In this document: in pieces, positions 2,794 to 26,416 of the stretch
How the letters are laid out: each line of letters begins with the position of its first letter
Position numbering within the stretch: position 1 is the first letter of the stretch
DNA from: a virus
Virus record (IMG/VR): IMGVR_UViG_3300027883_000019
Coordinates: 1 to 27,437 of that record
DNA: 27,437 bases
Reading direction: 5' to 3' (one strand)
Made by a program: the position numbers and the translations under genes
Notes under the pieces: model-generated
What the model was told of the DNA's origin: nothing
Databases searched by the model: none
Seen by the model: only the letters and a program-made list of their open reading frames with translations

Positions 2794-3201
2794 ATGGCAG
2801 GCGAAATTAACGGTACTAATATTTTAATCCAGAAAGGCGCTTCACCGACTGATATTTTTGGTCAAATGGAAGCTACATTAACAATGAATGGTACGCCGAT
2901 CGACATCAGCAATAAAAGCAATGGTGATTTTGTAACTATGCTTGATGCCGAAGTCTCAAGTCAGCAAATCGTTTTAACAGGTACTATGATTTATAATGTA
3001 TCTGATAACTACGAAGCAATCAAAGCCGAAGCATTTACAGGTACTCAAGACGATTACGTTGTCACGTTTACTGGTGGCGAATCATATTCGGGTAAGTTTG
3101 TTCCTAGTGGCATTAGCGATGCTATCCCGCATGGTGACAAGGTATCGACTAGCTTTACATTGTCTAGTTCTGGCGAAGTAACACGTACTCCGCAAACATA
3201 A
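2794..3201 (+). CDS. Major tail tube protein
   Basis: This 135-residue beta-rich protein starts MAGEINGTNILIQKG and ends in a Ser/Thr-rich strand. The pattern is typical of TP901-1-like tail tube subunits, which stack as hexameric rings to form the tail. The start has AGAGGA 7 bases upstream, the strongest ribosome binding site in this cluster, which fits a highly expressed structural protein. The stop overlaps the tail chaperone start by one base. Its position directly before the frameshifted chaperone pair is the standard siphovirus order. Confidence 0.8.
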   Translation: MAGEINGTNILIQKGASPTDIFGQMEATLTMNGTPIDISNKSNGDFVTMLDAEVSSQQIVLTGTMIYNVSDNYEAIKAEAFTGTQDDYVVTFTGGESYSGKFVPSGISDAIPHGDKVSTSFTLSSSGEVTRTPQT

Positions 3202-6385: not shown

Positions 6386-8701
6386 ATGGCTACATTTGAA
6401 CAAACAAAAGACATGAGAAGTCAACAGCACTTTGAAGTTCTAGAAATTGACTTACCAGTGATAACAGGCGCTTGCACAATTGGTGGCGCTAGTGGTTACG
6501 GTACGCCTTTGACTTGTGATGAAGCATGGACGGGCGAATATAAAACGTATAAATTCACCAATCAAAACGCACCATTAATTAAAGGCTCTCCTTTTAGATG
6601 TATTAAATCAATAGGCGAGACTGCTACCTCAATAATGCCAGGCAAAGGCTTGGCGGGGCGTGGCTCATTAAATATAACTTTTGATGATTTTACAGGACAA
6701 GACCCCAACCCAGAAGCGCCAGCAGTCACTAACACAGTTAAAAAGCAAGGTACATTTTTCGGTAAGCTTGCAGCAAGACAGATATTTGATAACAAGCTGG
6801 TAAGGCTAAAACTTTATCGTGTAGAGTCTGACGGCTCGATTGATTTAGTTAACGGTGCAGAAACTCGGCACTATGTAGCGGAATCTTTTAACGCAGGTAG
6901 TAAAGGAACATGGAAGCTAAACTGTAAAGACGTTATGTCTTTGGCTAATTTAGATGAGAAAGAGTGGCCTATTGCTACTAATAGTTTTTTACGTCAAGAC
7001 ACAACAGACACACAGCAAATATTACAGGTCGATAATGATACTGTTTACACGATAGGTATGGTTATCCGTATTGGTGACGAGTTTACAAGGGTGACAGGTG
7101 TTGACACTTCAAATCCTAGTGACCATAAAATACAAGTTACTACTAGGGGGCTGTCTATTGTCGGTACGCAATCGGGCGAATTACTAACGCTAACAGAAAA
7201 AGACGAGCATAGCGCAGGTGATGAGATATTTATATGTGATGAGTCAGACGATGAAACTATTGATAGCTTAATTACTAGGGTATTAATTGATTCTGATTTT
7301 GATCCCGCATTGATACCATCGGCTGAATGGGCCGCAGAGGTTAACGAATGGCATGCAACAACAAGAATAAATACATTACACATTGAATCTAGAAGCGTTA
7401 ACGATGTACTAAAAAGTGTTCTCAACGGGTTTTTAATGGATTTGTGGTTTAGCACTACAGAGAACAAAGCGAAATTATCAGCTATAAGCGTATGGAAACA
7501 AAGTAGCACAACAATTACAGAGGGCAAGGAAGTTAACGCATATGCTATCAGTAAAAAGCCAAAGGAAAGCATAAGAGCGTCAAGGGCGCTAGTGTTGTAT
7601 AACAAAGCCAATCTAGCAGATGATGACAGCACCACCAGTTATAAAAAAGGCGCTCAATTTGCCGACAACACAATAATAGTGCCTGAATTATATGGCGAGC
7701 ATAAAGACAAGCGCTTTGAAAACAATGTAATGCTAAATAAAGATAGCGCAGAGTTATTAGTTCAGCGTTACGTAAGTCGTTTTAAATTTACGCCGTATTT
7801 AAGAACGTTCACAGCAAATGAAAGATACATTAACTATAAAACTGGGGACGTAGTTAATATTAACAGCGAGGTAGACCAAGGTTTTGACGGTGCAAACTCT
7901 AACAACATAAGAGCACAGATTTTAAAAATAAATCCTAGCTACACTAAAGAAGGGCGGCAATATAAAGTAGATGCCATGACCTATGAAGCAGCATTTGAGG
8001 ATAACAGCGAGATTGTTTTAGACGGCGCATTAGGCGAAGTGAATCTTTATGTTTTAGCTGGCGCTCCTTCTCAAGCTGTTACAATAACATTTGTATTAGC
8101 CGCTTACTCATTTGGTCAAACTTCTATAAGGGCGGGTTCTTTTGCTGCAGACTCAAAAATAATATTGGTACTTGTTAACGGTTTTGAGGGTAAAGCAAAC
8201 GGTGGTAACGGCGGCGATGGTGCTGCTGGCGCTGTGTATAGTGTATTGCCCCCAGCTAACGTACCAGATGACGGGCAAAACGGTGGCACTGTTTACGATG
8301 CGCAAGGCGTAGATACTGATATTTATTTTAGCGGCCCAACTCCTTCGGCAGCATACCCAACAGCAGACGGTTATATTTTTGCTCCTAATGGCGGTGACGG
8401 CGGATTCAATTATCTTCAAGTAGGGCCTAATGTTTTTTTAGGTGGTAGTGGCGGCGATGGTGGTAACGGTAGATTACCCGGCACTGGCGGATCTGTTGGC
8501 CCTGTTGGCGATGTTGCTTACGCAAATAACGGAGCTAACGGCTCTATAAACGATACTGGAATAGGATGGGGGCAAGATGGTGTTGATAATGACGCATCCA
8601 AAGGTTTAGCGGGTAGCGGCATAATCGACAGCGGAGCAGTAAACGTGGTATTATTTGGAGCAACAGCGGCTAGATATGTGAACGGGAATGGTGACCACTA
8701 A
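6386..8701 (+). CDS. Tail hub / tip protein with glycine-rich C-terminal adhesin-like region
   Basis: I chose the ATG at 6386 (MATFEQTKDMRSQQ) rather than 6365, because the latter would sit inside the upstream gene and 6386 follows its stop by one base. The product is 771 residues. Residues 1 to about 560 are a beta-rich baseplate-type hub region. The last about 175 residues hold Gly-rich patches (GGNGGDGAAG, NGGDGG, GGSGGDGGNG, GTGGSVGPVG). Such patches resemble the polyglycine receptor-binding domains known from T-even gp38-type adhesins. That comparison is by pattern only. The stop overlaps the next start by one base. Domain fusion of hub and adhesin is the notable feature. Confidence 0.7.
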   Translation: MATFEQTKDMRSQQHFEVLEIDLPVITGACTIGGASGYGTPLTCDEAWTGEYKTYKFTNQNAPLIKGSPFRCIKSIGETATSIMPGKGLAGRGSLNITFDDFTGQDPNPEAPAVTNTVKKQGTFFGKLAARQIFDNKLVRLKLYRVESDGSIDLVNGAETRHYVAESFNAGSKGTWKLNCKDVMSLANLDEKEWPIATNSFLRQDTTDTQQILQVDNDTVYTIGMVIRIGDEFTRVTGVDTSNPSDHKIQVTTRGLSIVGTQSGELLTLTEKDEHSAGDEIFICDESDDETIDSLITRVLIDSDFDPALIPSAEWAAEVNEWHATTRINTLHIESRSVNDVLKSVLNGFLMDLWFSTTENKAKLSAISVWKQSSTTITEGKEVNAYAISKKPKESIRASRALVLYNKANLADDDSTTSYKKGAQFADNTIIVPELYGEHKDKRFENNVMLNKDSAELLVQRYVSRFKFTPYLRTFTANERYINYKTGDVVNINSEVDQGFDGANSNNIRAQILKINPSYTKEGRQYKVDAMTYEAAFEDNSEIVLDGALGEVNLYVLAGAPSQAVTITFVLAAYSFGQTSIRAGSFAADSKIILVLVNGFEGKANGGNGGDGAAGAVYSVLPPANVPDDGQNGGTVYDAQGVDTDIYFSGPTPSAAYPTADGYIFAPNGGDGGFNYLQVGPNVFLGGSGGDGGNGRLPGTGGSVGPVGDVAYANNGANGSINDTGIGWGQDGVDNDASKGLAGSGIIDSGAVNVVLFGATAARYVNGNGDH

Positions 8702-14260: not shown

Positions 14261-14511
14261 TTTTCATACTCATTATAATAGTTGTTTTGTGTTTGATTGA
14301 TGGTTGATACTACCGCTTCATACGCGCCGCCAGTTGTAGCTTTTATAACATTACGACAAGCATTGTATAAAATCTTATCCTTGGTTCTATCACGTATTAT
14401 TTTGCAACATTTAGCTATTTTCATAGCTCGCTGTTTATCAGTTAAAAACTTGTGAACTTGATTGCATAGTAATATCGTTAACGTGTCGCTTTTTATTTGT
14501 TCTGCATTCAT
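14257..14511 (-). CDS. Hypothetical helical protein, 84 aa
   Basis: This is a helical, basic protein with four Cys (positions 16, 34, 35 and 52) but no ordered zinc motif, and an Asn/Tyr-rich end (QTQNNYYNEYEK). I do not recognise a family. It is coupled to both neighbours by four-base ATGA overlaps, between the C5 methyltransferase and the helix-turn-helix protein, so it is certainly part of the operon. Confidence 0.7.
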   Translation of the reverse strand: MNAEQIKSDTLTILLCNQVHKFLTDKQRAMKIAKCCKIIRDRTKDKILYNACRNVIKATTGGAYEAVVSTINQTQNNYYNEYEK

Positions 14512-15545
14512 TGTGTTATACCCTTAAAAATATGCTTGATAACTTCCATAGTCCATGCGTTACCTGTCATTTTGTAAAGTTGTGTGTTACTAATGCCGGC
14601 GCTTAAAAGTGTATCAATATGATGTTCTGGTACTGTTTGAAGTCTCATGCATTCGCGCGGTGTTAGTTTGCGGTAGTGGAGTCTATCGTCTTTATCAATA
14701 TATTTGCCTTTAAACTTTTCTGCTGTTTCTTTGTTTGTCATTAACGGAACGTTACCACCACCAATGCCCATTGACGCCGTAATAGTTGGCGATTTGCCGT
14801 TGTATGTATGCTCTGCGTTTTTCTGTACTGTAGCTCTGACTACAAAGTTTCCATTCCAGCTTGCGTACTGCCTCGCTGTCATAGTTATCGCTTTATCTGT
14901 CGAGCCATCATTACATATTGCAGAGTATTTTTTTCTTAACTGAAAATCTTGCTTTTCACTCCACCACTTGTGCCATCCGTCAGAATTAACATCATTGCAG
15001 TCCTGCTCAATAATATCTTTTAATAAAATACCTCTATCTTCTGGCTGTTCAACCGCAAAGCTAGTCCAGTAATATCTGTTACGGTTTTGAGCAGATACCA
15101 GGGCGCTATTGATTAGTATTTTATGTACGTGACCTAAAGCGTTTTCGGTATGGGTTGTAATATACTGCTCAAACTCTTTTTTCATCTTTACGTTTTCAAT
15201 CATAAAGTGCGCTTTCGGGTTGTGGTATTTAACATGCTTCATAATATCCAGCATTGTCCAGAACAACATACCTCGTTCGTCTTTATCGCCTAACTGCTTA
15301 CCAGCCATTGACCAAGCTTGACAAGGAAAGCCGCCGGTAACTAAATCAATACTTGACCAATCAATATCCCATTCTCGCCATTCAGTTACACTACCTAGCT
15401 GTACAGTGTTAGGGTATAATGCTTGAGTTGCTTGTGTTGCGTACTTGTCAATTTCACTTGAGTAATACGTGCCTACATCAACATTAAGCGCTTCTAGCGC
15501 CATTCTGCCGACACTCATACCATTAAATAAGCTTAATACATTCAT
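14508..15545 (-). CDS. C5-cytosine DNA methyltransferase
   Basis: This 345-residue enzyme shows the C5-methyltransferase motifs in canonical order. Motif I is LSLFNGMSVGRMAL (4-17). Motif IV is GGFPCQAWS with catalytic Cys75. Motif VI is MIENV (115-119). Motif VIII is QNRNRYYW (153-160). Motif IX is around RKLTPRECMRLQ. Motif X is GNAWTMEVI (328-336). It transfers methyl from S-adenosylmethionine to C5 of cytosine in DNA. Motif I has LFNG where most bacterial enzymes have FSGxGG, like Dnmt3-type sequences. No restriction partner is nearby, so phage self-protection is the likely role. The recognition sequence cannot be read. Confidence 0.93.
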   Translation of the reverse strand: MNVLSLFNGMSVGRMALEALNVDVGTYYSSEIDKYATQATQALYPNTVQLGSVTEWREWDIDWSSIDLVTGGFPCQAWSMAGKQLGDKDERGMLFWTMLDIMKHVKYHNPKAHFMIENVKMKKEFEQYITTHTENALGHVHKILINSALVSAQNRNRYYWTSFAVEQPEDRGILLKDIIEQDCNDVNSDGWHKWWSEKQDFQLRKKYSAICNDGSTDKAITMTARQYASWNGNFVVRATVQKNAEHTYNGKSPTITASMGIGGGNVPLMTNKETAEKFKGKYIDKDDRLHYRKLTPRECMRLQTVPEHHIDTLLSAGISNTQLYKMTGNAWTMEVIKHIFKGITQ

Positions 15546-15898
15546 TACTTACCCACCCATGTAAATTCATGGCCAAAACTATTATCTTTAAAATCAATAA
15601 AGCCCTCTTCTCTAAGTTTTCTAGCATGTTTTAACACTGCTTTTTTACCAATGCCTGCGAAATCTTTTATTTGGGCGCTGTTAGTAACCATAAATAATTT
15701 AATAATATACTTTACTTGCTCAAGTTCAGTTAGGCTATCTAACGGCCTTTTATCGCGTTTAGAGTTAATTGTTAATCGCCTTGGTTTACGTGGCACTATT
15801 GGCGCTACATTCACTTTACCGCCGTTACTTTCAAACTGCGCTACAACGTCTAGACACCTAGCATGCTCTTCATTAGCCTTTTCTTTTGTTAAGTTCAT
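15545..15898 (-). CDS. Small DNA-binding-like protein
   Basis: This 117-residue protein has a basic middle (RKPRRLTINSKRDKRP, residues 37-52) and a C-terminal half that looks like a winged helix: helix, TNSAQIKDFAGIGKKAVLKH, then REEGFIDFKD and a final strand. The pattern suggests DNA binding. A transcriptional or replication-control role is possible but unproven. Its stop overlaps the methyltransferase start by one base (TAATG). Its start overlaps the end of the Ala-rich gene by ATGA, inside a 27-bp repeat. Confidence 0.6.
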   Translation of the reverse strand: MNLTKEKANEEHARCLDVVAQFESNGGKVNVAPIVPRKPRRLTINSKRDKRPLDSLTELEQVKYIIKLFMVTNSAQIKDFAGIGKKAVLKHARKLREEGFIDFKDNSFGHEFTWVGK

Positions 15899-16212
15899 TG
15901 TTTATTATCCTTGTTGATTTCATCAATGTAGTCTTGCTTGTTTTCGCATGTTTGTTTGAAGTATCTGTCAAGCCAATAATCAGCGGCAGCATAATCAATA
16001 GCAGCAGTATTAGCAGCAGCATAAGCACAAGCACAAGCATTAGCATTAGCAGCATAAAAATCATCAGCAACAAAGGCAGCATCAGCATCATTAGCATCGT
16101 AAGCAGCATCAGCATTCTGCTTTAACTGCTCTTGCGTGTACTTATCAGGGTTTAGCTGATTGTCTATTACCATTAATATGTGTTTGTTCATTGTTTATTA
16201 TCCTTGTTGATT
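15893..16212 (-). repeat. 27-bp direct repeats bracketing the Ala-rich gene
   Basis: Copies at 15893-15919 and 16186-16212 are identical over 27 bases. Each contains a start codon and its AAGGA ribosome binding site in minus sense. One copy is read as the last codons of the Ala-rich gene; the other is mostly intergenic, so coding constraint does not explain the match. A degenerate relative lies near 17128-17145. Confidence 0.95.
15895..16191 (-). CDS. Ala/Asp/Tyr-rich repetitive protein, 98 aa
   Basis: Residues 27-75 are a low-complexity run built on Ala with regularly placed Asp, Asn, Tyr and Phe (DAAYDANDADAAFVADDF). The run is flanked by ordinary-looking ends. Similar Ala-rich repetitive small proteins occur in accessory regions of many phages, without a known function. 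This frame is chosen because it has an AAGGA ribosome binding site and ends in an ATGA overlap with the next gene. The alternate minus-strand Leu/Met-rich frame starts inside the repeat with no such signals. The gene is bracketed by a 27-bp perfect repeat. Confidence 0.65.
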   Translation of the reverse strand: MNKHILMVIDNQLNPDKYTQEQLKQNADAAYDANDADAAFVADDFYAANANACACAYAAANTAAIDYAAADYWLDRYFKQTCENKQDYIDEINKDNKQ

Positions 16213-16966
16213 AAATTTCAAAAGCCATTTGTATAGATGTTTTATCAGTATCTTCATTGTAAATTAAAGAGCTTGCAGAGTTCACTGATTCAATATTGTT
16301 TTTCATTACATACGCCCTAACTTCTTTTGATTTTGGTTGGTAGTTACCTTTTGACCAATTTTTATCTATACCTATATTCCGGGCAATATTTGTGCTGTCA
16401 GCTGACGCAAAAGGAAGATTTTTAAAAATACTTTTATTTAAACCCCTTAACATATGTAACTTAGTTATTGGATACCCATTATCATCAACAACATGGCGAA
16501 TAACATCTTTTAACTTGCTTACAGATGACGCTGGCTTGCTTACATCATATTCACCACAAGAGCCTATAGCTACTCGATCATAATCATTGCACAGCCTTAT
16601 AAACCTTTCATCTGACTCGTTCATGTGCCACACAGGAACACCAGCACCGCAGCGATTTAAATCCCATTCACTCAATAAGATGTCATTTTCAACTTCACCA
16701 CCATCAATAACATCTGGAATAATACAAAAGTCATACCTTGGATGATTTTTTATTGATTCAATAAAGCTATAATAATCATCCCAATCAATTTTTTTTGTTT
16801 TTTTCCAAAATGTAAAAGCACCGTTGTCAATGCCAACGCCTTGGCTTATATCTAAAGCAAGATGCAATTGGCTTGTATGCGCCCAACTAACAAAAGCAAA
16901 GCCATTCTTCCAAGCTTTCATAGCGCAACTGGCTGGTGTTATAGGCCCACCGTGATAATGTTTCAT
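16211..16966 (-). CDS. TGT/DpdA-like TIM-barrel protein (putative nucleic-acid base modification enzyme)
   Basis: This 251-residue protein opens MKHYHGGPITP. Conserved-looking acidic clusters follow on predicted barrel strands: GVGIDNGAF (D47), CIIPDVIDGG (D85, D88), VPVWHMNES (H114), RVAIGSCGEY (131-140), LHMLRGLN and PFASADSTN (D190). This series resembles the tRNA-guanine transglycosylase/DpdA superfamily, whose phage members insert 7-deazaguanine bases into DNA to evade restriction. The CxCxxC zinc motif of classical TGT is absent, and the protein is shorter. The assignment is by pattern recall, so treat the reaction as a hypothesis. The next gene upstream is joined by ATGA. Confidence 0.5.
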   Translation of the reverse strand: MKHYHGGPITPASCAMKAWKNGFAFVSWAHTSQLHLALDISQGVGIDNGAFTFWKKTKKIDWDDYYSFIESIKNHPRYDFCIIPDVIDGGEVENDILLSEWDLNRCGAGVPVWHMNESDERFIRLCNDYDRVAIGSCGEYDVSKPASSVSKLKDVIRHVVDDNGYPITKLHMLRGLNKSIFKNLPFASADSTNIARNIGIDKNWSKGNYQPKSKEVRAYVMKNNIESVNSASSLIYNEDTDKTSIQMAFEI

Positions 16967-25503: not shown

Positions 25504-25705
25504 AGAACAAAAACCGTCCAACTTAATTTTAGTTGCGGCGGCGAGTGCTGCTATTAGTGGCGGTGGTACTCACATAGTTACATCAAGCGATGATGTAACT
25601 AGTGCTGGCATTGAAGATTGTCGTTCATTCTCAGAACATGCTAGAGAGCATGAGCGCGCTAATTGTGAGATAGAGAAAAATAGAATTTTATTGGAGTGTA
25701 AATGA
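25496..25705 (+). CDS. Hypothetical protein with N-terminal hydrophobic segment, 69 aa
   Basis: Residues 9-27 (NLILVAAASAAISGGGTHI) form a short hydrophobic, small-residue helix that could be a membrane anchor or signal. The rest is charged, with three Cys (42, 57, 68) and many Glu. It could be a spanin-like or other lysis accessory, but lacks a lipobox, so this is only a possibility. It is coupled to the methyltransferase by ATGA. Confidence 0.5.
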   Translation: MSEEQKPSNLILVAAASAAISGGGTHIVTSSDDVTSAGIEDCRSFSEHAREHERANCEIEKNRILLECK

Positions 25706-26416
25706 TTAACTTAATTCAAGGTGATTGCTTAGAGCGAATGAAAGAGATTGAAAGCGGTTCAGTTGATATGATTTTGACAGATCCGCCTTATGGCACTACA
25801 GCGTGTAAATGGGATTCAATCATTCCGCTAGAACCAATGTGGGAGCAGTTGAAGCGTATTATTAAGCCTAATGGGGCTATTGTAATGACAGCAAGCCAAC
25901 CTTTTACAAGTGTATTGACCTGCAGTAATTTAAAAATGTTTAAGTATTCTATGGTTTGGAAGAAGTCACAAAGCACGGGGCATTTAAATGCTTGGCGTAT
26001 GCCTATGAGAGCGCATGAGGATTTAGTTGTTTTTTATAGTAAGCCGCCAACGTATAACCCAGAATTAAAAGACAAGCCGGCAGCTAACATTAGACCAATA
26101 ACAAGCAGAACAAAGAAAACAGATTGTTATGGTGATCACAAGCTTGATGCTCGGAAATGCCCGCCAAATAAAACAATGCCAAACAGTGTACTGCAGTTCA
26201 ATAACGCACAAGGCACAGTGCACCCAACACAAAAGCCAGTTGCATTAATGGAGTGCCTAATTAAAACCTACACCAACGAAAACGAAACGGTTTTAGATTT
26301 CACAATGGGCAGTGGCACTACTGGCGTAGCAGCTAAAAACCTAAACCGTAGCTTTATCGGTATTGAGTTAGACGAGAATTATTTTAACATTGCACAAGAA
26401 AGAATTGGAGTGTAAA
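25690..26416 (+). repeat. 13-bp direct repeats bracketing the N4/N6 methyltransferase gene
   Basis: ATTGGAGTGTAAA occurs at 25690-25702 and 26404-26416, holding the ribosome binding site for the gene that follows. The two copies are read in different frames (ending ECK and IGV), so the match is at DNA level. Confidence 0.85.
25702..26415 (+). CDS. N4/N6 DNA methyltransferase (beta-type)
   Basis: This 237-residue enzyme has the catalytic motif IV TDPPYG (26-31) near the N-terminus and the SAM-binding motif I VLDFTMGSGTTG (197-208) near the C-terminus, followed by FIGIELDENYF. This is the beta-class order of exocyclic amino methyltransferases (PF01555). DPPY permits either N6-adenine or N4-cytosine methylation; the target site cannot be read. 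No nuclease partner is present, so it is probably for anti-restriction. A GGAG site lies 5 bases upstream. Confidence 0.93.
   Translation: MINLIQGDCLERMKEIESGSVDMILTDPPYGTTACKWDSIIPLEPMWEQLKRIIKPNGAIVMTASQPFTSVLTCSNLKMFKYSMVWKKSQSTGHLNAWRMPMRAHEDLVVFYSKPPTYNPELKDKPAANIRPITSRTKKTDCYGDHKLDARKCPPNKTMPNSVLQFNNAQGTVHPTQKPVALMECLIKTYTNENETVLDFTMGSGTTGVAAKNLNRSFIGIELDENYFNIAQERIGV

Follow-up and report, generated by a model that had tools for sequence, protein, structure and literature searches.

The stretch of viral DNA analyzed here, hereafter referred to as the window, comprises the 27,437 nucleotides of a 27 kb IMG/VR contig, which may be a fragment, such that the gene absences described below for the window refer to the contig alone. 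Provided in Table 1 are the coordinates of the gene under study, dpdA, of codons for its putative active site residues, and of a neighboring methyltransferase gene. The dpdA reading frame is intact and encodes 251 amino acid residues followed by a TAA stop codon. It is situated in a minus-strand cluster that also contains homologues of NinB and RusA and, as the third gene 3' of dpdA on the same strand, the C5-cytosine methyltransferase. Adjoining dpdA is an open reading frame for 98 residues (15895-16191) that consists of a low-complexity repeat rich in Ala, Asp, and Asn (ANADAAYDANDADAAF...). The stretch matching it in a related locus, L007, near position 3000, is also repetitive in appearance. 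A second DNA methyltransferase is located at 25702-26415 (PHROG 67), and as many as three modifications may thus occur in the DNA of this phage when dpdA is counted with the two methyltransferases.

Table 1. Features of the dpdA region, in window coordinates.
Feature	Position	Strand	Basis or counterpart
C5-cytosine DNA methyltransferase, possible companion modification enzyme	14508..15545	(-)	PF00145, E 7e-42
Singleton DpdA-like 7-deazaguanine DNA transglycosylase gene	16211..16966	(-)	PHROG 887, hhalign to pathway-linked DpdAs, AlphaFold2 model
Codon for Asp 190, inferred nucleophile	16397..16399	(-)	Aligns with Asp 215 of 9g DpdA; invariant
Codon for Arg 174, HxLR signature of the singleton subfamily	16445..16447	(-)	Gly in pathway-linked DpdAs
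Codon for His 171	16454..16456	(-)	Aligns with His 196 of 9g DpdA, the DpdA hallmark histidine
Codon for His 114	16625..16627	(-)	Aligns with His 141 of 9g DpdA; invariant
Codon for Asp 85, candidate base-recognition Asp	16712..16714	(-)	Aligns with Asp 114 of 9g DpdA; invariant
Codon for Asp 47	16826..16828	(-)	Aligns with Asp 72 of 9g DpdA and the DSGGF motif of TGT

The encoded protein matches PHROG 887, annotated as queuine tRNA-ribosyltransferase, with an E-value of 3e-74, and displays 63% sequence identity to a Vibrio phage protein (E 6e-98). Homologues are present in 128 phage records (E up to 0.01). Comparison of the gene with those on a near-identical contig and on an 86%-identical contig yielded dN/dS ratios of ∼0.02 and 0.07, respectively. 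Purifying selection thus acts on dpdA, and the open reading frame is a real, conserved gene rather than a chance occurrence. No model in Pfam or NCBIfam finds the protein, and weak Ets-domain matches in the Pfam, NCBIfam, and single-sequence PDB searches were dismissed as chance. When close phage relatives were sought at the nucleotide level, only short methyltransferase matches came up.

An earlier note on this DNA had proposed a DpdA/TGT-like enzyme on the basis of four sequence landmarks. All four are located in the translation as described, namely Asp 47 within IDNGAF, PDVID at positions 84-88, WHMNES at 113-118, and ASADSTN at 187-193. A joint alignment was constructed with short DpdAs and with pathway-linked DpdAs, the latter mostly adjoining QueC, QueD, or FolE genes. 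As can be seen in that alignment, Asp 47, Asp 85, His 114, His 171, and Asp 190 are invariant across both groups, whereas the short DpdAs carry an HxLR signature versus HGxG in the pathway-linked proteins. The roles of the catalytic residues in TGT are known. Asp 47 lies in register with TGT by hhalign, and its counterpart is presumably the general-base aspartate, Asp 102 of the Z. mobilis enzyme. By transfer from TGT, Asp 190 would function as the nucleophile and Asp 47 as the general base. The zinc motif of TGT, CxCxxC, is absent from the window protein, from all 425 relatives, and from the nine other phage DpdA-like proteins examined. His 196 of the 9g enzyme is a DpdA hallmark for which DpdA2 has no equivalent (PMC6884629). 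The window protein is assigned to DpdA because that histidine is present as His 171, and DpdA2 (the nt-1 type) was rejected.

The AlphaFold2 model, calculated from a 43-sequence alignment, has a pLDDT of 93.2 and a pTM of 0.89. The eight strands alternate with helices in the pattern of a TIM barrel, and the window protein is thus predicted to adopt the fold that the earlier note had anticipated rather than another one. Indeed, nearly all of the 251 residues belong to the modeled barrel. A Foldseek search against solved structures returned mostly TIM barrels, none with an E-value below 1e-3, and an archaeal archaeosine TGT (1j2b) ranked 13th (E 0.02) after other TIM barrels. The search supports the predicted barrel and does not single out TGT. 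Against predicted viral proteins there were 28 matches at E <1e-3, and wherever a function was named it was queuine or queuosine tRNA-ribosyltransferase. The viral matches also included nt-1, a Vibrio phage of the DpdA2 type. No meaningful match came from a single-sequence PDB search with the window protein or from profile searches of solved structures.

The proposed homology to DpdA proved to be well founded. A profile comparison with the pathway-linked phage DpdAs (hhalign) gave a probability of 99.6% and an E-value of 8.5e-24, and tblastn aligned the window protein to the DpdA of Pantoea phage MED16 with 35% identity over 198 residues (E 2e-35) and to the SE131 protein with 34.5% identity (E 1e-27). 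The SE131 protein and its counterpart in Salmonella phage 7-11 share 99.6% identity. A direct hhalign comparison with bacterial TGT kept the register without reaching significance. The link to TGT itself is weaker than that to DpdA and runs through the pathway-linked DpdAs, which align with TGT in register (hhalign, E 0.0015), and through the published HHpred match of the MED16 DpdA to T. maritima TGT (PMC8306585). Bacterial and archaeal TGTs share with the window protein the predicted barrel and aspartates at corresponding positions, but they possess a zinc site and act on tRNA. Membership in the TGT family was rejected, as the window protein has neither a match to Pfam TGT (PF01702) nor the zinc motif. 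Judged by sequence and model, it has the features expected of a DpdA: the homology, the hallmark histidine, the predicted TIM barrel, and the pair of putative catalytic aspartates with roles taken from TGT.

The gene belongs to the gamma-proteobacterial group of singleton DpdAs, that is, DpdAs without preQ0 or G+ synthesis genes, and it is a further member of an already recognized phage family. Hutinet et al. in 2019 found DpdA-only phages to be the largest group, described singleton clusters from Mycobacterium and gamma-proteobacterial phages, and raised the possibility that singletons have diverged in function (PMC6884629). The short MED16 enzyme followed in 2021 (PMC8306585). The earlier suggestion of an undescribed subfamily, marked by short length and a missing zinc motif, consequently does not hold: the phiSM DpdA, which adjoins QueC and QueD genes, contains only 240 residues, and pathway-linked DpdAs are also without the zinc motif. 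Many temperate phages carry a singleton DpdA, Salmonella BTP1 and Shigella SfI among them.

Two short members of the family have been characterized chemically. In MED16 DNA, dADG amounts to ∼0.13% of G (PMC8306585), and in 7-11 DNA to ∼0.02% of G (PMC6884629). Scaled by genome, these published rates correspond to ∼33 dADG residues in MED16 and ∼9 in 7-11. The MED16 DpdA, a member of the DpdA/TGT_1 cluster, resembles the window protein in length (261 versus 251 residues; PMC8306585), active-site set, and HxLR signature, and both phages are without synthesis genes and have a DNA methyltransferase nearby; the two differ in that sequence identity is only 35% and that dADG has been measured in MED16 alone. 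The SE131 DpdA likewise has 251 residues and the same signature, and a 7-11-like record (L417), as in the window, is without QueC; here the differences are the 34.5% identity and the very sparse dADG of 7-11. The pathway-linked DpdAs (9g, Iggy, and others) share the barrel and the D/D/H/H/D set, including His 196 of 9g, but are encoded within FolE-QueD-QueE-QueC clusters, contain HGxG rather than HxLR, and often have C-terminal extensions (9g, 317 residues). In Mycobacterium phage Orion, a DpdA-only phage whose host is without the pathway, no modification was found (PMC6884629).

The window record contains neither QueC nor a PF02592 gene, and none of the non-structural proteins that were scanned against PHROGs or Pfam proved to be QueD or another queuosine-pathway enzyme, the earlier note having likewise reported no queuosine-precursor genes. 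None of the viral records of 50 relatives, which may be fragments, encodes QueC above the family cut-off; the sole QueC-like match (G047) was partial, fell below it, and was rejected. QueC is encoded in each of the seven bacterial genomes that carry a close relative of the window dpdA, which is only a consistency check in that QueC is common in such bacteria.

A same-strand gene neighbors dpdA in 19 of ∼80 representative loci. One representative of this gene gave a match to PF02592 (Vut_1/YhhQ), a family to which the preQ0 transporter of E. coli belongs, as cited in PMC6884629. With a cluster model, this preQ0-transporter-like gene was located in 62 of the 425 family loci (flanks of ∼5 kb), always within 700 bp of dpdA, 30 times upstream and 32 times downstream; the 425 loci are not independent, and the independent count of the pairing is nearer 19. 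A whole-record Pfam search found PF02592 in six of the 50 relatives' records, all adjoining dpdA, and in none of 41 control phage records, which were picked by methyltransferase, are shorter on average, and include two with a DpdA family member. The same pair occurs in the annotated phages Phleasolo and Tbat1_6. In a tree, the transporter is spread over several clades, and the pairing therefore probably has multiple origins. According to Hutinet et al., phage YhhQ did not correlate with any of the groups (PMC6884629), and no earlier report of the dpdA/PF02592 pairing was found in the open-licence literature. A further 15 loci contain a QueD/PTPS-like gene, the representative of which has a Pfam match below the cut-off, and it never occurs together with the transporter. 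In these loci (L389, L394, L398-L403, L405-L407, L409, L412-L414) the small protein displays HGH motifs, and its gene is directly 5' of dpdA in those inspected. PP-loop-like proteins are encoded near some singleton dpdA genes (L310:161-1027 and L385:6196-6987), the one in L310 matching PAPS reductase.

New in this analysis are the linkage of dpdA in relatives to a PF02592 or, alternatively, a QueD-like gene, and the distribution of QueC. The linkage supports the view, from gene neighborhoods, that these enzymes would use borrowed 7-deazaguanines; together with the viral records without QueC above the cut-off, it makes likely the host supply suggested in the earlier note. The linkage thereby supports a 7-deazaguanine substrate by an independent genomic line and renders the 2019 question of singleton divergence testable in laboratory E. 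coli.

By analogy to its relatives, the window gene most likely encodes a singleton DpdA that exchanges guanines in phage DNA for a host-derived 7-deazaguanine, a reading to which we assign a probability of roughly 80%. The occurrence of 7-deazaguanine in virion DNA has been established by others for relatives of the window phage, and identity to the two relatives with measured dADG is only about one-third. For the window phage itself we infer the following chemistry, substrate, and benefit. Asp 190 would displace guanine from the DNA to form a covalent enzyme-DNA intermediate, as in TGT and DpdA. Asp 47, Asp 85, and His 114/His 171 would orient the replacement 7-deazaguanine and activate it for insertion where the guanine had been. 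The base would be preQ0 or its amide, ADG, drawn from the queuosine pathway of the host because the phage is without synthesis genes. If this phage resembles MED16 and 7-11, the product would be a deoxy-7-deazaguanine, most likely dADG, that is sparsely distributed at perhaps tens of residues per genome or fewer, and the probable benefit would be nuclease evasion at some sites.

QueC produces ADG as an intermediate. The HxLR singletons might form a functionally distinct branch that inserts ADG, the amide intermediate of host QueC, directly and only at a small number of specific sites in each genome. This idea is speculative and rather unlikely, but if true it would account for the occurrence of dADG in the absence of DpdC as a partner, for its very low abundance, and for the recurrent pairing with a precursor transporter.

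The gene context is compatible with an anti-restriction role, though no proof of one. The C5-methyltransferase family neighbors dpdA in seven of the loci clustered, Pseudomonas phage Epa33 carries a C5 methylase directly after dpdA, MED16 has an adenine methyltransferase near dpdA, and ral (restriction alleviation) lies in the same region as dpdA in BTP1 and SfI. In MED16, dADG had little effect on the restriction enzymes tested (PMC8306585).

Modification in MED16 and 7-11 is very low, and therefore DNA might be a minor substrate. The enzyme could then be a phage tRNA transglycosylase, modifying or de-modifying, that exchanges queuine or guanine in host tRNA and produces dADG as a side reaction. 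Although the homology to TGT and the name given by the databases agree with such a function, it is unlikely for a protein that carries the DpdA hallmark histidine, is without the zinc motif of bacterial TGT, is closest to enzymes inserting 7-deazaguanine into DNA, and, being almost entirely barrel, has no space for an added tRNA-binding domain. Improbable as well is a diverged barrel that inserts no 7-deazaguanine and acts on DNA with another base or by another glycosylase reaction. The recurrent transporter-like or QueD-like neighbors and the dADG of the two tested members argue against it, whereas the subfamily-specific HxLR in place of HGxG, the absence of synthesis genes nearby, and the functional divergence raised by Hutinet et al. 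(PMC6884629) would be in keeping with it. That the gene is an inactive remnant or functionless is highly improbable, for despite an in-frame stop in a Paraferrimonas prophage copy, such a state is contradicted by the selection test, the invariant catalytic set, and the intact frame. The Paraferrimonas stop (L013 and L169, at ∼position 6618 of each locus) follows approximately residue 206 and falls beyond the conserved DSTN motif.
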